A stretch of 34,333 nucleotides of DNA from Planctomycetaceae bacterium (GTDB lineage Bacteria > Planctomycetota > Planctomycetia > Planctomycetales > Planctomycetaceae), in NCBI GenBank assembly GCA_900299185.1, contig OMIV01000376.1, positions 1 through 34,333 on the forward strand, read 5' to 3'. Both the position numbers and the translations under genes were made by a program. How positions within the stretch are numbered: position 1 is the stretch's first letter; every line of letters starts with the position of its first letter. The notes under the pieces were generated by a model, which was not told where the DNA came from, ran no database searches, and worked only from the letters and a program-made list of their open reading frames with translations. This document shows, one piece after another, positions 7,684-15,962 of this stretch.

Positions 7684-9117
7684 TTAGGAGAAGAGTTCAT
7701 AGAGCGGACGACCGGTCGAAAGCGGTCGCGTAAAGCCATCTTTGCCCAAACGCATATCAAGCGGAACTTCGAGTGCGTGGAAGATTGTGGCTCCCAAGTC
7801 CTGAGGTCGAACGGGCTTGTCTTTGACGTAGGCACCGTCCTTATCGGACTCGCCCCAGACCCGACCGCCCTTAATGCCGCCGCCCGCCAACATCGTCGAG
7901 AAGCAGGACGGCCAATGCTGACGGCCAGGGCTCGCCATTCCGTTTTGATTGATGCGCGGAGTCCGCCCGAACTCACCAGTCACGACGACCATGGTGTCGT
8001 CGAGCATCCCACGATCACTCAAATCGGTGAGCAGCGCAGTGAGACCTTGATCGAGGCACGGCAAGCACCAGCCCATTCCATAAGACCCCGAGCCGAAAGC
8101 GTTGCCCATACCCATCTCGCCACCGTGCATGTCCCAACTGGAAGCTGGCGGTCCGCCACCTCCGTTTGGAGAAGGCCCAGTCCAGCCATTCACAGTCACG
8201 AAGCCAACTCCCGATTCGACAAGACGGCGAGCCAGCAACAAGTTCTGCCCCAGCGGATGCATGCCGTAGCGATCTCGAACTTCAGGTGACTCGCGATGAA
8301 GTTCAAACGGAGCGCGACCAGCAGAACCACTCGTCAATTCAAATGCGCGACCATGCAGGTCTTGCCAGTCACGAGCCGCTTGATGCTGATTGATGTCGCT
8401 GGCAGTCGGCGCCGATGCCATCCCATCCAGCAAGCGGCGTCGATCATGCATGCGTTCGGACGACACGATGCCCACCAACTCATCCGGTGCTTTGAAGGTT
8501 GGCATCGCCGGATGGTTCGTCGCAGATCCCACAAACAACGGACTGTGCATCATTCCGAGGTGTCCTCCGTTGCCGATGTTGACCGCGCAGAAAACCGGAT
8601 CACCGACGCACTTAATCAGCCACACATACGGGGCAATGCTGCGATCGTCCGGTCGAGCCTTCGACATGATCGACCCCAGGTACGGCGCATCGAGCGGAGC
8701 TTGCGACTGACCGCTCAGCATGTGGTGCATCGCGTCGAAGTGATTGCTGATATTGCCTTCGTGCGACATCGACCGAATGAGCGCGATCTTGTCGGTCATC
8801 TGAGCCAGCCGAGTATGCATCTCATTGATGCGCATGCCCGGCACTTGAGTAGCGATTGGAGAGTACGGACCGCGGATCGTATCCGGGGCATCGGGCTTCA
8901 AATCCCAGGTGTCAACATGACTAGGTCCACCGCACAACAGGATGAAGATGCAAGACTTCTTGGCTGGCCCTTTGCCAAGCCCTCGCTTGGGGTCGACGCC
9001 CGCAGCCACAGTCCCAGGCAACCCCAACGGCAACGCTCCCAAGCCAGCGGCTTGCAGCATCGTTCGCCGCGAAATCTGTGAGAGAACTGGAACCGAATGC
9101 TGACTGCGATTGCTCAT
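7684..9117 (-). CDS. DUF1501 protein, Tat-exported, alkaline phosphatase/sulfatase-like fold
   Basis: The 477-residue product starts with a twin-arginine signal: SRRTMLQAAGLGALPLG at residues 16-32, then a small-residue stretch ending near AAG. The body shows CGGPSHVDTWDLKPDAP, SHEGNISNHFDAMHHMLSG, GEFGRTPRIN with a downstream GRQHW, and a C-terminal LGATIFHALEVPLDMRL. These are the typical blocks of DUF1501 proteins, abundant in planctomycetes and related to the alkaline phosphatase superfamily. Molecular function is unknown. These genes are usually next to a DUF1549/DUF1553 cytochrome gene, but no such partner lies beside this one. AAAGGA about 7 bases before the ATG at 9117 supports the start. 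A 7-bp hairpin at about 7658-7677 follows the stop but lacks a T-run. Confidence 0.9.
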   Translation of the reverse strand: MSNRSQHSVPVLSQISRRTMLQAAGLGALPLGLPGTVAAGVDPKRGLGKGPAKKSCIFILLCGGPSHVDTWDLKPDAPDTIRGPYSPIATQVPGMRINEMHTRLAQMTDKIALIRSMSHEGNISNHFDAMHHMLSGQSQAPLDAPYLGSIMSKARPDDRSIAPYVWLIKCVGDPVFCAVNIGNGGHLGMMHSPLFVGSATNHPAMPTFKAPDELVGIVSSERMHDRRRLLDGMASAPTASDINQHQAARDWQDLHGRAFELTSGSAGRAPFELHRESPEVRDRYGMHPLGQNLLLARRLVESGVGFVTVNGWTGPSPNGGGGPPASSWDMHGGEMGMGNAFGSGSYGMGWCLPCLDQGLTALLTDLSDRGMLDDTMVVVTGEFGRTPRINQNGMASPGRQHWPSCFSTMLAGGGIKGGRVWGESDKDGAYVKDKPVRPQDLGATIFHALEVPLDMRLGKDGFTRPLSTGRPLYELFS

Positions 9118-9378
9118 GAATCGTCCTTTGACAGAGTGTCGTATTCGTGACGCCCTGATGATGATGCTGCAGACCGCACCAATTGGAAGCGTGCATGGCA
9201 GGAATCATCGTCCGAAGCAGCGGCAATCATGACAGGCAGCAGCACTATCCCGAGTAAGCTTGCTCACTCGACCGACACCTGCCCGCCAGAGTAACTCGAT
9301 GGAGATGCAATCGAAGTCCGTTTGCAGGACGATGACGTGAGTCAACCTTGGATCTCGCCACACACAAAGGATGGAAGC

Positions 9379-9810
9379 ATGGCTCGTGTCGTCCGGTATG
9401 CGTCTCAGTTTCGAGTCATGGGATGGCCGCTGCTGGCGATCTCGCAGGGACCTGATGCTTCGAAACAAGAAGAACGCGGACATGCTCGCGGCATCATCGC
9501 GATTGGCGATATCGCGACGGGAGTCATTGCTATCGGCGGAATATCGCGTGGGATCGTGGCGGTAGGTGGCGTCGCTGCCGGACTGGTATCCGTTGCCGGA
9601 GTGGGCCTGGGTGGTTTTGTCGTAGCCGGAGTGGCGTTGGCTCAAACCGCATTTGGTGGAGTCGCCATCGGCCAATATGCGATGGGAGGCGTCGCCGTCG
9701 GTTCGCACGTCATCAGTGCTAAGCAGATCGACGACGAAGCGGTGACTTGGTTCGGTCGCATCGGTCTGCATCCCCCCAAGCCCAAACTGCCCGACTTGCC
9801 TGCCAAGTAA
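9379..9810 (+). CDS. Small protein with seven decapeptide Gly/Ala/Ile/Val repeats
   Basis: The 143-residue product has an N-terminal segment (1-37) containing MGWPLLAISQGPDASKQ and then seven consecutive 10-residue repeats at 38-107. The pattern is roughly G-h-h-A-h-G-G-h-A-x, where h is hydrophobic: GIIAIGDIAT, GVIAIGGISR, GIVAVGGVAA, GLVSVAGVGL, GGFVVAGVAL, AQTAFGGVAI, GQYAMGGVAV. A hydrophilic tail ends in a Pro/Lys-rich stretch. Similar Gly-Ile-Ala-rich repeats occur in uncharacterised bacterial proteins; I cannot assign a function. A beta-solenoid or a glycine-zipper membrane assembly are both possible. The ATG at 9379, with AAAGGA about 7 bases ahead, is preferred over a TTG 57 bases upstream. 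It diverges from the DUF1501 gene and has its own terminator. Confidence 0.75.
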   Translation: MARVVRYASQFRVMGWPLLAISQGPDASKQEERGHARGIIAIGDIATGVIAIGGISRGIVAVGGVAAGLVSVAGVGLGGFVVAGVALAQTAFGGVAIGQYAMGGVAVGSHVISAKQIDDEAVTWFGRIGLHPPKPKLPDLPAK

Positions 9811-9820
9811 GTCAACGGCA

Positions 9821-9850
9821 TGCTCAGACTCATTCTGAGCAACTGTTTTC
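9821..9850 (+). terminator. Terminator after the decapeptide-repeat gene
   Basis: TGCTCAGA (9821-9828) and TCTGAGCA (9834-9841) form a perfect 8-bp stem with a CTCAT loop. ACTGTTTTC follows on the plus strand. It begins 10 bases after the stop codon. Confidence 0.7.
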
Positions 9851-10085
9851 AATCGGTTGCCCTCGACGGATGACTGTGACATCGTCCGCAAACAGCGCAT
9901 GAAAGCTGCTTGTGGCTAGCCAACCAGTTGCCGCCAAGTGGCCTTTCTTACAGACAGGTTTGACCAACCAAACTTGTGACGAGCTAGCTTGCCGCCAACC
10001 AAACCAGCGGCAGTTTGTCCCTCACCCGTGACTTGTCTGACGTGCGATGCGGCATTGGAAACTCTCCCCAATCAATGGACCTGAC

Positions 10086-11720
10086 ATGCGAGCTTCTGAG
10101 TTTGTCGAAACACATTTCCGGCTCATCTTTTTGTGGTCGGCTGCGAGCCTCGTAGTCATCACGGCGATCGCCGGCGCCTTCCTTGGTCCTATGGTGCTGT
10201 GGCCGTGGGTCATCTTTGGTCCGCTGGTCATGCTGGGCATCGCCGACCTGACTCAAAAGAAGCAAGCCATTCGCCGCAACTATCCGGTTCTCGGACACAT
10301 GCGGTACTTCCTCGAACTGATTCGCCCCGAGATCTATCAGTACTTCATCGAGAGCGATAAGGAAGGCGTGCCATTCGATCGCGAGCATCGTTCGCTCATC
10401 TATCAACGTGCCAAGAGCGTTCGTGATACGACTCCCTTTGGGACAAAGCTCGATGTCTACGCTCCCGGCTATGAGTGGGTGAACCACTCGCTGCAAGCGC
10501 GCCATGTCGATGCCAGCAACATGCGCATCACAATCGGCGGACCGGACTGTAAGCAGCCTTACTCATGCAGTCTGTTAAACATTTCTGCCATGAGTTTTGG
10601 TTCGTTGAGCATGAACGCGATCCTCGCACTCAGCCGAGGCGCCAAACTCGGCGGGTTTGCCCATAACACGGGCGAAGGTGGACTCAGCCCTTACCACATC
10701 GAAGGTGGCGGCGATCTGATTTGGCAGATCGGAACTGGCTACTTCAGTTGCCGCGAAGAGAACGGCAACTTCTCGCCCAAGTTGTTTGCGGAGAAGGCGG
10801 CGATTCCGAACGTCAAGATGATCGAGATCAAGCTGTCACAAGGTGCGAAGCCGGGGCACGGCGGCATCCTGCCAGCAGCGAAAGTGACGCCCGAGATCGC
10901 CGAAATCCGCGGCGTCCCGATGGGCAAGGATGTGCTCTCCCCACCAATCCACTCGACGTTCTCAACTCCGATTGGATTGCTGGAATTCGTGAAACAACTA
11001 CGAGAGTTGAGCGGTGGCAAGCCGATTGGTTTCAAACTCTGCGTGGGCAAGCGACGAGAATTCCTGGCGATCTGCAAGGCGATGGTGAAGACCGGGATCA
11101 CTCCTGATTTCATCACCGTTGACGGCGGCGAAGGCGGAACCGGTGCAGCTCCTTTGGAGTTCTCCAACCACATTGGAGCCCCCTTGGTCGAAGGCTTGAT
11201 CTTCGTCCACAACGCGCTCGTGGGATACTCGCTGCGCAACCGCATTCGGATTCTGGCCAGCGGTAAGGCCTCATCGGGCTTCGGCATGTTGAAACGACTT
11301 TGCATCGGAGCCGACGTTGTCATGTGTGCTCGCGCCATGATGATGTCGATCGGCTGCATTCAAGCCTTGAAGTGCAACAGCAACCATTGCCCGGTCGGTG
11401 TGGCAACTCAAGAAAAGCATTTGATGGCGGGACTGGATCCAACCGACAAAGCCAATCGAGTGGCGAGCTATCACAAGCATACGATCCACAGCTTGGCCGA
11501 AATGATTGGAGCAGTCGGACTCGACTCGGCTCAACAACTCCGCCCGTGGCACTTGATGCATCGCATCTCGGCCAACGAAACCAAGCACTATGGCGAGCTG
11601 TATCACTTCTTACGCGACGGCGCACTTCTCTCCGAAAACCTACCGGACGACTACGCGCGAGCCTGCACCTCGGCCACGGCGGAATCCTTCGGCCACAGTG
11701 GGATCGGCGGGCGCGACTAA
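10086..11720 (+). CDS. FMN-binding glutamate synthase-family protein with N-terminal membrane anchor
   Basis: About 544 residues. Two hydrophobic spans lie near the N-terminus (LIFLWSAASLVVITAIAGAF and VLWPWVIFGPLVMLGI). They are followed by the synthase-type TIM barrel of glutamate synthase: GAKLGGFAHNTGEGGLSPYH, the flavin-site block SQGAKPGHGG, and DFITVDGGEGGTGAAPLEF. SIGCIQALKCNSNHCPVGVAT holds three cysteines spaced like the iron-sulfur cluster site of GltB. Stand-alone proteins of this kind lack the amidotransferase domain and the NADPH subunit, so the electron donor and true substrate are unknown. An ATG at 10047 is also in frame. The ATG at 10086 is preferred because GGA lies 6-7 bases before it and the N-terminus then begins as in relatives. 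No gltD-like partner is adjacent. Confidence 0.85.
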   Translation: MRASEFVETHFRLIFLWSAASLVVITAIAGAFLGPMVLWPWVIFGPLVMLGIADLTQKKQAIRRNYPVLGHMRYFLELIRPEIYQYFIESDKEGVPFDREHRSLIYQRAKSVRDTTPFGTKLDVYAPGYEWVNHSLQARHVDASNMRITIGGPDCKQPYSCSLLNISAMSFGSLSMNAILALSRGAKLGGFAHNTGEGGLSPYHIEGGGDLIWQIGTGYFSCREENGNFSPKLFAEKAAIPNVKMIEIKLSQGAKPGHGGILPAAKVTPEIAEIRGVPMGKDVLSPPIHSTFSTPIGLLEFVKQLRELSGGKPIGFKLCVGKRREFLAICKAMVKTGITPDFITVDGGEGGTGAAPLEFSNHIGAPLVEGLIFVHNALVGYSLRNRIRILASGKASSGFGMLKRLCIGADVVMCARAMMMSIGCIQALKCNSNHCPVGVATQEKHLMAGLDPTDKANRVASYHKHTIHSLAEMIGAVGLDSAQQLRPWHLMHRISANETKHYGELYHFLRDGALLSENLPDDYARACTSATAESFGHSGIGGRD

Positions 11721-11937
11721 CCTGCATGACACTCGATGCAGTTGCTACTCCGAGCACATCCCAGACCGCGTTTAGACACCGCGTGGTCGTCGGCAAACGC
11801 GTACCGTGAACACTGCCATCGCCGTTCGTTCGAGCCTCGCCGATCCTTCGCCCAAAGATTAGTCTCGACTCCGTTTCCGACGGATCGCCACCTCAAACCG
11901 GTTGGACCCGCAGCAGGCGAAAGACGAAAAGCTGGCT

Positions 11938-14547
11938 ATGAAGATTTCCACGTTCACGGTCGGGATGCTGCTTGGCAGCGTCTGCCTTATTTCCGCATCC
12001 AAAGCTCAGGACGCGCCGGTCTCTCTGGAGATGGCCAAGGAGCAGGGACGAGCCAAGTCGCGATACCTCAAAGAAACGAAGGAAGTCGCGAAGACGTCCG
12101 ACGTGGCACCGAACGCCAACGTGGCCTTCTTCAACGAGTCGGTGAAGCCCATCCTGACGAAGAGTTGCCTGGCTTGTCATGGTCCCGAAAAAGCGGAAGG
12201 CCGACTACGCATCGACAAACTGAATCCAGACATGCTGACTGGTCCGGACGTCGATCGCTGGCGAGAAGTCTTCAACGCTCTCGGTAAATCCGAGATGCCG
12301 CCGGAAGACGCGACCGAATACGCCCTCGCCGACGCAGATCGTGGCAAGATCGTAGATTGGCTCAGCGAAGAACTAACCACAGCGTCGGTCGTGCGTCGCA
12401 ACAGCAAAGAGCACACGTCGTTCAGACGTCTCACGACGTACGAATACAACTACGCGCTACAAGACTTGCTCGGCTTGCCCTACTCACTCGCCAGCAAACT
12501 TCCGCCGGAAACCGCTTCCGAAGACGGCTTCAAAAACAGCTCGGAATTGCTGCAAATGTCCGTTATGCAATTCGAGGCGTACCGGGACATCGCTCTGAAA
12601 TCTCTGAAGCGAGCCACGGTGATTGGTGAGCAACCGCAGCCCGTCACCTACATCATTTCGATGCCTGAAGAGATGGCTAAGGCCGAGTCCAAGAAGGATG
12701 ACAAGGACACCGATCCAGCCAAGAAAGCCAAAAAGAAGCCCAAGAATCAGCAGCAACTCTTCAATCGAGAAAGCGGTGACACCATCCCGTTCGGCGAGCG
12801 TAAGACGCTACCTCGAGAAGGCGCCGTGCCCGGACAAACGCCGCCGGTTTTGCCGGTCGTTCTCGTGCTGCCTCGTTCCAACGAGTTGAAGCTGGATCTT
12901 GACCGCTTCCTGCCGGACGAAGGGATCATGCGAGTCCGCATCCGGGCCGGACGCTCAACAATGAATCCCGACGAGTATGCGAGCCTGCGTCTGATCTTCA
13001 GTGCTCATACCAGTAACAACGCCAACTTCACCCAAGTCGTCAGCGAGGGTGATATTCCCGTCACGGCCTCCGCCGACGAACCACAATGGATTCACTTCGA
13101 CATACCTCTCAGCGACATCCAGCGCAATCCTTTCCGTAAGCTGAAGACAACTTTTCCGCGTCGAGACGAGTTTCTGCATATCCACAACGTTTCAAATGCA
13201 CCCGGCGGCGAAGAACCGTTGCAAGTGATGATCGATCACATCGAAATCAGCGCCCCGTTCTATGAGCAATGGCCGCCGAAAACTCATACCGCCATTTTCT
13301 TTGACAGCCCGCACAAGAGCGACGAGCAAGCCTATGGCCGCGAAGTATTAAACAGATTTCTAAGACGCGTCTGGCGGCGACCTGTGACTTCAGCAGAAGT
13401 CGAACAATTTATGGCATTGTTCGCCAAATATCGCCCCGGCTTCGAGACATTCGAAGAGGCCATGATCGAAGTTCTCGCAACGGCGCTAGCGACTCCCGAA
13501 TTCCTTTACCTGACGCAACGCTCGACCGCCGACTATACCAAAGTCGCATCGAAAATCAGCGACGTGGAATTTGCTAGCCGCCTCTCAGTGTTTCTGTGGT
13601 CCAGCATCCCTGACGACGAACTTCTCAACGTGGCCGAGCAGGGTAAATTGAGAGAGCCGTCAGTTCTGACCGGTCAGATCCAACGCATGTTGGCCGACCC
13701 GCGATCCAAGCGATTCTCACAGAACTTTGTCGAGCAGTGGCTGGGCTTGGACCGGATGAATAGCGTGACTCACGTCACAGACAATTCACTCAGAGACGCC
13801 ATGCTCGAAGAGCCCGTTGCCTTCTTCGACGAAGTGCTTCGGAGCAATCACAGTATCATGGATTTCATCCACTCGGATTACTCAGTAGTAAATGAGCGAC
13901 TCGCTGGTCATTACCGTATCCCGAAAGTCTACGGGCCGCACTTCCGTAAAGTCGCAATTTCACCACAAACGAATCGAGGTGGCCTACTCACTTCGGCTGC
14001 GATCATGACGATGAATTCCGACGGCAAGGACTCGCACCCTCTCAAGCGCGGCGTCTGGATACTCAAACGAATTCTCGACGATCCGCCGCCACCACCGCCG
14101 CCAAATGTGCCAGAGGTCGATCTCACCGACCCGGAGATCCTCAAAATGACCCTCAAAGAGAGGATTGTGAACCACAGAAATAAGCCGGCTTGTTATTCCT
14201 GCCACTCGCGAATTGACCCCTGGGGAATCGCCTTCGAAAACTACGACGCACTCGGAAGTTTTCGAACTCAGATTAAGAATCAGCCGGTCGATGCGACGTC
14301 AGAGCTATTCAATCGACAAAAACTGGCGGGTATAGATGGACTCAAGCGATATCTGTTGACGGACCGACAAGATCAATTTGCCCGAGCGATGGTGCATAAG
14401 CTGACGGCTTACGCTCTTGGTCGCCCGCTCTCATTCGGCGACCGAGCGGATGTGGATAAAGTCACAATGCAACTTCGACGCAAAGAAGATGGGCTCGGCG
14501 AACTCATTACTCTGGTTATCAACAGCAATCTCTTTAACTCCAAATAA
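11938..14547 (+). CDS. PSD1-type planctomycete cytochrome c protein (DUF1587/1595/1592/1588/1585)
   Basis: The 869-residue exported protein starts with a signal peptide (MKISTFTVGMLLGSVCLIS), so the ATG at 11938 is chosen over the in-frame start at 11902. Domain order is a PSCyt1-like heme segment with CLACH (77-81) and SEMPP; DUF1587 (RRLTTYEYNYALQDLLGL); a Lys-rich linker; a beta-rich carbohydrate-binding-like region; DUF1595 (FLRRVWRRPVTSAEVEQF); DUF1592 (FASRLSVFLWSSIPDDELL); DUF1588 with PPPPPPPNVPEVD and a second heme motif CYSCH (752-756); and DUF1585 at the C-terminus. The family is abundant in planctomycetes and is thought to act in periplasmic redox or polysaccharide processing; the reaction is unknown. 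It lies 17 bases upstream of a DUF1552 gene, its usual partner. Confidence 0.93.
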   Translation: MKISTFTVGMLLGSVCLISASKAQDAPVSLEMAKEQGRAKSRYLKETKEVAKTSDVAPNANVAFFNESVKPILTKSCLACHGPEKAEGRLRIDKLNPDMLTGPDVDRWREVFNALGKSEMPPEDATEYALADADRGKIVDWLSEELTTASVVRRNSKEHTSFRRLTTYEYNYALQDLLGLPYSLASKLPPETASEDGFKNSSELLQMSVMQFEAYRDIALKSLKRATVIGEQPQPVTYIISMPEEMAKAESKKDDKDTDPAKKAKKKPKNQQQLFNRESGDTIPFGERKTLPREGAVPGQTPPVLPVVLVLPRSNELKLDLDRFLPDEGIMRVRIRAGRSTMNPDEYASLRLIFSAHTSNNANFTQVVSEGDIPVTASADEPQWIHFDIPLSDIQRNPFRKLKTTFPRRDEFLHIHNVSNAPGGEEPLQVMIDHIEISAPFYEQWPPKTHTAIFFDSPHKSDEQAYGREVLNRFLRRVWRRPVTSAEVEQFMALFAKYRPGFETFEEAMIEVLATALATPEFLYLTQRSTADYTKVASKISDVEFASRLSVFLWSSIPDDELLNVAEQGKLREPSVLTGQIQRMLADPRSKRFSQNFVEQWLGLDRMNSVTHVTDNSLRDAMLEEPVAFFDEVLRSNHSIMDFIHSDYSVVNERLAGHYRIPKVYGPHFRKVAISPQTNRGGLLTSAAIMTMNSDGKDSHPLKRGVWILKRILDDPPPPPPPNVPEVDLTDPEILKMTLKERIVNHRNKPACYSCHSRIDPWGIAFENYDALGSFRTQIKNQPVDATSELFNRQKLAGIDGLKRYLLTDRQDQFARAMVHKLTAYALGRPLSFGDRADVDKVTMQLRRKEDGLGELITLVINSNLFNSK

Positions 14548-14564: not shown

Positions 14565-15962
14565 ATGAATAACAAAGCTGCTTTAATGAGCCGCAGGACA
14601 TTTCTTCGCGGCACCGGTATCGCCCTGGCACTGCCGTGGCTCGAAACATTTGCAGTCGGAAGCCAAACCAAAGACGCCACACCCAAAAGGTTTCTCAGCG
14701 TCTATCACCCGGACGGAGTCGGACTGCCATTGAAGTCCGACCCGGCGTGGGAGGATTGGAGTTGGTTTCCTCGCGGTGGCGAAACCGATTTCAAATTGAC
14801 CAAGGTGCTTGACGTTCTCGAACCGCTCCGCAGTGATATCACCATTTACTCCGGATTATCTCACCCCGCTGCCCGCAGTGTCCACGGGCACTCCAACGCA
14901 GATCAGTATCTAACCGGAGCACCAGTCGGGGGACACGGTCCGTATCAAAACACAATCTCTCTCGATCAGGTCTATGCCGAACACGCCGGTGAATTCACCC
15001 GACACTCTTCACTGGTCATGTCGACCAACGGCGGCGTGGGTGGCCCGCGCGGAGCACAAACGCAGTCCTTCAATCGAGAAGGCCGACCGATCCCGGCCAT
15101 GAATAAGCCCAAGGAAATCTTCGACCTGCTGTTCGTCACAAGCGGTAAGGACGCAGCGGAGCGTCTCGCCAGAAGTAAGAGCGCACTCGATCTATTGATA
15201 GACAATACCCGCTCGCTAGGTCGCCAACTCTCCAAGCGAGACCAAGAAACTCTCAAGCAGTATCTGGATGCGGTACGTGATACCGAAGTCAAACTCGCCA
15301 AAGCACAACGCTGGATCGACACTCCGGTCCCACAAGTTGATACCAAGAAACTGCACCTGGAAGCTGAGCCCAAGGAAGCACGCCTCTACTTCCAAACCAT
15401 GTACGAGCTGATTTATCTCGCATTCCTGAGCGACTCAACGCGATCCGCGACGTTCCAACTCGGCCGCGAGAATGGAGAAGGCCCGCACGATTTGCTTTCT
15501 CAAGCTGTTGGCCTAGGTGGTGCTCACGGCCTGACTCACGAGGTCAAGAAGCCTGGCGGCTGGCAAAACCTGGGAACTTACAATCGGTATCAAGCCGAGG
15601 AATTCGGTCGCTTCGCGAAGCGGCTTAAAGACACTCCAGAACCAACCGGCAACGGCAATATGTTGGATAACACTTTTGCCATGCACGGTTCCGCATCGAG
15701 TAGCTTCCACCTCTCTCGCAACTACCCAATTATCTCTGCCGGTGGCAAGAACCTCGGTTTCGTTAATGGGCGATACCTTAAGTTCGGTAAAGGAAACGAA
15801 GACAACCAAGCGGGTGCTGGAATTGATACCGATGCGGGTTGGACAAGCAAAATGGAGATCGAGGAACTCCCACTGTCGAAGTTGTTCGTCACCATCTTAC
15901 AGCGACTCGGAGTCGAAACGGACTCGTTCGGCGGCTACTCCGGCGCCTTGAGTCGAGTTTGA
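14565..15962 (+). CDS. DUF1552 protein, Tat-exported partner of the PSD1 cytochrome
   Basis: The 465-residue product begins with a twin-arginine signal, SRRTFLRGTGIALALPWLE (residues 9-27). It continues with blocks typical of DUF1552: VYHPDGVGLPL, a SGLSHPAARSVHGHSNADQYLTG segment and HGSASSSFHLSRNYPIISAGG near the end. DUF1552 proteins resemble the DUF1501/alkaline-phosphatase-like group, and no reaction is established. AGGGA precedes the ATG. The 17-base gap after the cytochrome gene indicates one transcription unit, so both products probably act together outside the cytoplasmic membrane. Confidence 0.92.
   Translation: MNNKAALMSRRTFLRGTGIALALPWLETFAVGSQTKDATPKRFLSVYHPDGVGLPLKSDPAWEDWSWFPRGGETDFKLTKVLDVLEPLRSDITIYSGLSHPAARSVHGHSNADQYLTGAPVGGHGPYQNTISLDQVYAEHAGEFTRHSSLVMSTNGGVGGPRGAQTQSFNREGRPIPAMNKPKEIFDLLFVTSGKDAAERLARSKSALDLLIDNTRSLGRQLSKRDQETLKQYLDAVRDTEVKLAKAQRWIDTPVPQVDTKKLHLEAEPKEARLYFQTMYELIYLAFLSDSTRSATFQLGRENGEGPHDLLSQAVGLGGAHGLTHEVKKPGGWQNLGTYNRYQAEEFGRFAKRLKDTPEPTGNGNMLDNTFAMHGSASSSFHLSRNYPIISAGGKNLGFVNGRYLKFGKGNEDNQAGAGIDTDAGWTSKMEIEELPLSKLFVTILQRLGVETDSFGGYSGALSRV

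Follow-up and report, generated by a model that had tools for sequence, protein, structure and literature searches.

A planctomycete repeat protein as a putative free-standing copy of a beta-roll module of bacterial signalling proteins

The window, the whole 34,333-nucleotide stretch of planctomycete DNA analysed here, carries a small gene whose product contains a hydrophobic glycine/alanine repeat between two conserved ends. What is this protein, what fold does the repeat adopt and in what process might it act? A first-pass annotation made from the sequence alone described seven exact decapeptide repeats and proposed either a regular solenoid or a glycine-zipper sheet or membrane assembly. 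The gene and its parts are as follows.

9379–9810, plus strand: free-standing repeat protein gene, 143 amino acids, stop codon included (open reading frame; purifying selection; close relatives start at the equivalent methionine)
9367–9371, plus strand: Shine-Dalgarno-like AAGGA, 7 nt before the ATG (read from the sequence)
9388–9489, plus strand: N-terminal cap, residues 4–37, with GWPLLAISQGPD and with GHAR at its end (conserved positions in 30 aligned rows)
9490–9699, plus strand: repeat, residues 38–107, seven decapeptides equal to 14 pentads G-x-h-A-x, with types A (GhhAh) and B (GGhAx) alternating (periodicity, alignment, predicted beta structure at 35–116)
9715–9765, plus strand: C-terminal cap, residues 113–129, motif DDEAVTWF (family DPxAxxFF), with a predicted helix at 119–128 (alignment, AlphaFold2)
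9821–9841, plus strand: terminator-like hairpin TGCTCAGACTCATTCTGAGCA, then ACTGTTTT (terminator scan and RNA fold)

Judged by sequence comparison, the frame at 9379–9810 is coding and under purifying selection, because the differences between the repeat gene and six relatives fall mostly at third codon positions and dN/dS is low in two closer pairs of relatives (∼0.16 for L035/L036 and 0.21 for L007/L009); dS is saturated between the repeat gene and these six relatives. The ribosome site and terminator that the first-pass annotation had assigned to the gene were both recovered, as the AAGGA and the hairpin listed above. The hairpin has an RNA fold z of -2.7, and two terminator-like sites were found in the 951 bases scanned versus a shuffle mean of 0.7. 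A sigma-70-like promoter for the repeat gene was looked for in the sequence and none was found.

To describe the repeat, we measured column identity in the window protein at different periods. Residues 38–107 split gap-free into ten-mers, and identity peaked at period 5 (z 13.8) and period 10 (z 9.8); neither value was reached in any of 5000 residue shuffles, which confirms the seven gap-free ten-residue units. Period 14 scored below the shuffle mean. The units are not exact, as first claimed, since the pattern G-h-h-A-h-G-G-h-A-x fits only one of the seven ten-mers (GIVAVGGVAA). The finer period is five: the unit is the pentad G-x-h-A-x, and two alternating pentads make up the ten. Position 1 is glycine or alanine in all 14 pentads of the window protein, position 4 is glycine, alanine or serine in 13 and position 3 is a large hydrophobic residue in 13. 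Positions 3 and 5 together are large and hydrophobic at 13 of 14 sites in type A pentads (face A) and at 11 of 14 in type B (face B). The repeat has a GRAVY of +1.6 with only D44 and R57 charged, and the window protein contains no cysteine.

The same pattern is found in the relatives. Across 120 aligned rows, position 1 is glycine at a frequency of 0.93, position 4 is alanine or serine at 0.87, and positions 3 and 5 are hydrophobic at 0.83 and 0.79. By autocorrelation, five is the strongest glycine-glycine spacing among spacings of 2–9 in 92 of 93 modules. A pentad-parser count was set aside as evidence since it gave no separation (median 24 for shuffled arrays versus 20 for real ones); the periodicity evidence in the relatives is this autocorrelation together with the cap-to-cap lengths below. 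Both caps, like the many relatives, were absent from the first-pass annotation. Within the N-terminal cap, P17 and A36 are invariant in a 30-row alignment and R6, G15, L18, G24 and G34 nearly so. The cap consensus GxPLxxIAxGPDxxxGExRGxARG is common to the relatives, and the C-terminal DPxAxxFF is often present. Left out of the set were L140 (a low-complexity match), L002–L005 (weak matches from the window's own genome) and a 93-aa fragment of L034, in which the module is split between two frames; the L040 copy has stop codons inside the repeat and only its first 43 residues were aligned.

Cap-to-cap lengths could be read in the 28 of 92 ORFs with both anchors, the other 64 being without a recognised anchor pair. 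The distance was 82 residues in 14 ORFs, 83 in two, 90 in two, 92 in four, 93 in one, 94 in two and 103 in three, with no half steps; these counts treat related rows separately, and close relatives make up most of the 14 at 82. The two ORFs at 90 end differently at the C terminus and fall outside the 82+10n series. Additionally, the Allochromatium and window proteins can be aligned over 145 columns (43% identity) with a single gap of exactly ten. Because lengths grow by ten and this gap is exactly ten, the structural unit is most likely the decapeptide, with one or two residues inserted in places. The first-pass annotation had named a lack of homologues with the ten-residue period as evidence against its reading; the relatives keep the period.

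We next give the distribution of the module, with genomes counted at E≤1e-6 and the own or centre genome included in each count. Within the same family 53 of 170 genomes had a match, and within the phylum 40 of 392 did; the counts were 5 of 149 for the phylum of a Ruminiclostridium MAG and 10 of 101 for that of a Thermotogae MAG. A single plasmid among 72,556 records carries the module, pALVIN01 of Allochromatium vinosum, where it is annotated as a hypothetical protein. This free-standing copy (L154:2263-3438, WP_012972329.1) immediately follows a ProQ/FinO gene. A plasmid search with a Bacillota query and a phage search with one Bacillota query gave no match, and no relatives were found in the viral contigs scanned. 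At this threshold the window genome contains a single module; four weaker matches (E 0.016–1.2) were not counted as members. As far as these searches reach, the module is spread patchily: in planctomycetes, in MAGs of Bacillota and Thermotogae, and on a single plasmid from Allochromatium.

The window protein had no match at E≤10 in either Pfam or NCBIfam. For the trimmed modules of 30 relatives, the best Pfam match was GLTT in one relative (E 0.00069), with all others at E 0.044 or worse, and NCBIfam gave E 0.041 or worse. The GLTT repeat (PF01744) matched 2 of the 92 ORFs at E≤0.001, above its cut-off in L077, and was rejected as the low-complexity resemblance of another five-residue repeat. 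A sequence search of the PDB returned nine matches, all dismissed as weak: the best (E 0.026) was chain sc-apCC-4 at residues 6–33, outside the repeat, and the others included two CCR4-NOT chains, one over 42–137 at E 0.086, and the antifreeze chain 4kdv over 28–87 at E 0.71. Searching the PDB with a profile yielded no match at E≤1. We found neither a paper describing the module nor an experiment on one of its members. The nearest statement, in the available part of PMC11237479, is one sentence in a PSP survey on Firmicutes fusions of HAAS with 'pentapeptide repeat domains'.

AlphaFold2 was run on the window protein with alignments of 6 and of 8 rows, the second run without the last 14 residues. 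The first model reached pLDDT 69, with one of five models above pLDDT 50. The second reached pLDDT 75.2 and pTM 0.60, with three of five models above pLDDT 50 and blocks at residues 41–90 at 80–87, and it shows unbroken beta structure at residues 35–116 followed by a helix at 119–128. A regular fold was thus predicted, so the other outcome that the first-pass annotation had named as refuting its reading did not arise, and its 'regular solenoid' is supported by this moderate-confidence continuous beta structure and by the near-universal five-residue glycine spacing. Foldseek gave no match at E≤0.001 in the PDB or BFVD (best in BFVD, E 0.0031). With VIA-align, the second model was led by the YadA-like heads 3s6l (Z 10.3, rmsd 6.4, 101 aligned) and 7o23 (Z 9.6), followed by 3ult (Z 6.4) and then rows at 3.7 or less; the top rows have rmsd above 6, and for repeats a Z under about 13 may mean a common arrangement only. 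YadA-like heads also led for the first model (Z 9.5 and 7.9), with a less clear gap to the next rows (7.1, 7.1 and 6.1). Pentapeptide towers and Toastrack are absent by name among the PDB structure matches listed, which excludes nothing. For the array, the prediction is a beta-solenoid that most resembles a flat left-handed beta-roll in which each decapeptide makes one turn and supplies two five-residue faces; we infer the handedness, the turn length and the outward-pointing side chains of this roll.

The five-residue beat could also be read as that of a pentapeptide-repeat module with a 20-residue turn, and the 'pentapeptide repeat domains' placed beside HAAS by the sentence in the accessible text of PMC11237479 may be the same module. 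Pentapeptide repeat proteins (PF00805) share a strict five-residue beat and a solenoid tower, and a phage protein named Pentapeptide stands at rank 6 of the BFVD list (E 0.23). Their tower is a right-handed quadrilateral helix with four pentads per turn. The array of the module changes length by ten residues, a step that a 20-residue turn allows but does not require, and left-handed rolls lead the structural rows of both models. The PF00805 model matched neither the window protein (E≤10) nor any of the 30 relatives (E≤1), although the same model does find members in the window genome and in 9 of 14 control genomes. In the portion of PMC8145042 available, the consensus is given as [STAV][DN][LF][STR][G] with at least 8 contiguous repeats; the 2006 and 2019 forms of the consensus had 0 matches in the window protein. 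By profile and by published consensus the protein falls outside the pentapeptide-repeat family, and we consider it improbable that the module is a pentapeptide-repeat module of this build.

Evidence on function comes from the proteins in which the module is found. At E≤0.001 (Pfam), the 92 module ORFs include 13 with Pkinase, 13 with Sigma70_r4_2, three with HTH_3, two with HAAS and two with a zinc ribbon. The module occurs alone or C-terminal to Ser/Thr kinase, ECF sigma, XRE-HTH, zinc ribbon or HAAS partners; GLTT apart, the families listed (the best 25 of 32, 25 of 138 and 25 of 54) are partner domains. HRDxKPxN and DFG are present in all 13 kinase ORFs; a joint scan of the sigma ORFs gave a Sigma70_r4_2 match for each of the 13. 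The zinc ribbon of L055 passes the Pfam cut-off and that of L043 falls just below. A PadR-like ORF lies directly upstream in 5 of the 14 loci listed, and all five pass the Pfam PadR cut-off; in these loci HAAS scores above its cut-off in L081, below it in L080 and L070, and is undetected in L083 and L147. No PadR-like ORF is listed for six loci with a similar helical-looking N-terminal segment (L039, L155–L159). The first-pass annotation, which knew of no function for such repeats, was too pessimistic, as these fusions point to intracellular signalling.

Two further observations concern particular copies. In the Ruminiclostridium MAG (L038:5116-6522), a free-standing module gene lies directly upstream of an XRE-HTH-module gene, 3 nt from its GTG and 54 nt from its first methionine; this tandem is a natural pair for module-module binding tests. 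In L054, L055, L058, L065, L144, L145 and L146, the second glycine of the GG step is often glutamine (GQ), suggesting a stacked glutamine ladder. Several of these GQ variants have in common, by eye, an N-terminal stretch around 'GxWRR', where L145 and L054 are without a clear Pfam match.

Transmembrane (TM) helices were placed by a crude hydropathy scan. None separates partner and module in any of the 13 kinase or three XRE ORFs, and the XRE fusions have no flanking TM helix at all. The 13 sigma ORFs have one to three TM helices before the module, with one after it in 10 of 13; some of the kinase and HAAS fusions also have TM helices after the module. Among ORFs shorter than 230 aa with a recognised repeat, 40 of 43 have no TM helix outside the repeat. 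Because no TM helix lies between cytoplasmic partners and the module, the architecture suggests that the module is on the cytoplasmic side, and near the membrane in the sigma fusions. The planctomycete sigma ORFs (L067, L127, L130–L134, L136–L139, L141 and L142) are themselves of an unusual self-contained architecture: an ECF sigma factor with C-terminal TM helices and module, mostly with one more TM helix.

The neighbours of the repeat gene in the window are the following.

7684–9117, minus strand: DUF1501 protein, beside the repeat gene (Pfam)
10047–11720, plus strand: Glu_synthase-like stand-alone protein, 557 aa, just downstream of the repeat gene (Pfam)
11902–14547, plus strand: planctomycete-type PSD/PSCyt protein (Pfam)
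14565–15962, plus strand: HXXSHH (DUF1552) protein, after the PSD/PSCyt protein (Pfam)

None of these is a known signalling gene. Comparison of three genes on each side in 18 stretches showed neighbours common mainly to close relatives. The module gene itself was placed in 14 of the 18, being missed in the window, L087, L090 and L100, probably where an overlapping ORF was kept. An operon with the neighbours was rejected: of seven window neighbours, only DUF1501-like genes occur near relatives, in 3 of 15 neighbourhoods. There is also no HAAS Pfam match in the window protein and its adjacent genes are Glu_synthase and DUF1501, so the coupling to HAAS-PadR holds for the module family and not for the window gene. 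Free-standing and sigma-fused copies co-occur in 3 of the 53 matching genomes (G104, G110 and G135, judged by ORF length). With neighbours unrelated and mostly not conserved, and with this low co-occurrence, no fixed partner for the free-standing copy was found.

Taking sequence, model and analogy together, we give about even odds to the following reading. The gene would encode a free-standing version of a hitherto undescribed module, found C-terminally in intracellular signalling proteins of bacteria, whose beta-roll serves as an assembly or sensing platform. In such a roll, the glycine at position 1 would form the corners and the alanine or serine at position 4 would pack a very thin core. 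Since position 4 is near-invariant, it is taken as the inner residue; positions 3 and 5, mostly I, V, L or F, would therefore point outward and give large hydrophobic outer faces. Such faces must be covered, so docking onto another module copy or a membrane-proximal partner is probable. In the fusions, kinases, sigma factors or HTHs may be brought together in this way, or held at the inner membrane until a signal alters the packing. The window's free-standing protein would serve such an assembly as a scaffold or as a partner acting in trans.

The same hydrophobic faces could instead act mainly on the membrane, the module being a peripheral membrane sensor in which one roll face lies on the inner membrane and gates the attached sigma factor, kinase or HTH, with copy-copy assembly secondary. 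TM helices flank the module in the sigma fusions and lie behind it in some fusions with a kinase or HAAS, the outer positions are large and hydrophobic in a strongly hydropathic repeat, and a sub-membrane role has been proposed for Toastrack (PMC11237479, in the part available). However, by the crude scan most of the short ORFs and all three XRE fusions are without a TM helix outside the repeat, and the window repeat, with D44 and R57 as its only charges, has no basic belt. On this evidence we think a primary membrane-sensing role rather unlikely. A glycine-zipper alpha-helical or amyloid-like membrane assembly, the alternative raised at first pass, draws on 70 highly hydropathic, Gly/Ala-rich residues but is very unlikely, as a five-residue period that runs without gaps is not helical, the beat spans 82–103 residues between caps (28 ORFs) and the best models of both AlphaFold2 runs are beta. 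Of that earlier alternative, the zipper or transmembrane form is disfavoured by the cytoplasmic-side fusions and the non-helical beat, while a sheet-type lateral assembly is possible and belongs to the platform reading above.

The platform reading can be extended to a broader proposal, which we put forward tentatively and at somewhat under an even chance. The module would be an unrecognised domain family with, to our knowledge, the tightest regular turn of disulfide-free beta-solenoids (ten residues, with an alanine core and glycine corners). Bacteria of several phyla would attach it interchangeably, as an assembly or sensing end, to Ser/Thr kinases, ECF sigma factors, one-component HTH regulators and HAAS-PadR pairs; free-standing copies would act in trans by roll-to-roll docking. 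A module that occurs on several main classes of bacterial signal proteins, and for which Pfam and NCBIfam give no match in the window protein and weak ones in relatives, is a missing common annotation element. If the ten-residue turn is true, the module represents a beta-solenoid reduced to its minimum, well suited to testing structure prediction and design. Should roll assembly control kinases and sigma factors, it would offer one testable mechanism for those planctomycete ECF sigma factors and kinases that have unexplained C-terminal parts. WP_012972329.1 of Allochromatium vinosum provides a copy from a cultured organism.

Among known ten-residue coils, the midge antifreeze protein has the pattern xxCxGxYCxG, with cysteine at positions 3 and 8. 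The module has the same spacing, xxAxGxhAxG, with alanine replacing cysteine. In contrast to the midge protein, it lacks cysteine, is bacterial, is cytoplasmic by its fusion partners and is capped at both ends, and homology is not claimed.

The YadA-like heads (3s6l, 7o23), left-handed parallel beta-rolls of trimeric autotransporter adhesins, are the top structural rows for both models. They resemble the module in having a short repeat with a conserved glycine and in having some layers one residue longer, as in the lengths of 82/83 and 92/93 here. YadA-type layers have 14 residues with an invariant glycine, and UspA1 has layers of 14 versus 15 (PMC9543794, in the part available). Layer length rejects a YadA head, as the module has a period of 5/10 and grows by 10, not 14. 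The heads are also secreted trimeric surface adhesins, whereas the module is found in cytoplasmic signalling fusions. The window protein consists of N-terminal cap, repeat and C-terminal cap only, with neither a YadA stalk nor a membrane anchor, and it has no YadA family match in Pfam. An ice-binding or adhesin role, prompted by LpIBP (3ult) and the YadA heads in the structure lists, was rejected since the fusion partners are cytoplasmic.

The Toastrack domain (DUF4097/DUF2807/DUF2154) of PSP, Lia and HAAS-PadR systems offers a parallel in context. According to the accessible text of PMC11237479, Toastrack likewise lies C-terminal to HAAS beside PadR, has a repetitive beta fold, sits near the membrane and is tied to transcription regulators; HAAS-PadR systems with Toastrack are proposed there to form a sub-membrane assembly platform. 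Its fold is a right-handed beta-helix with an intertwined seven-stranded N-terminal region, whereas the module turn is probably ten residues. The Toastrack models (DUF2154, DUF4097 and DUF2807) match neither the window protein nor the 30 relatives and are absent from the best 25 of 32 families. The window protein is best read as a predicted minimal cytoplasmic beta-roll for assembly or sensing, with a putative role like that of Toastrack.
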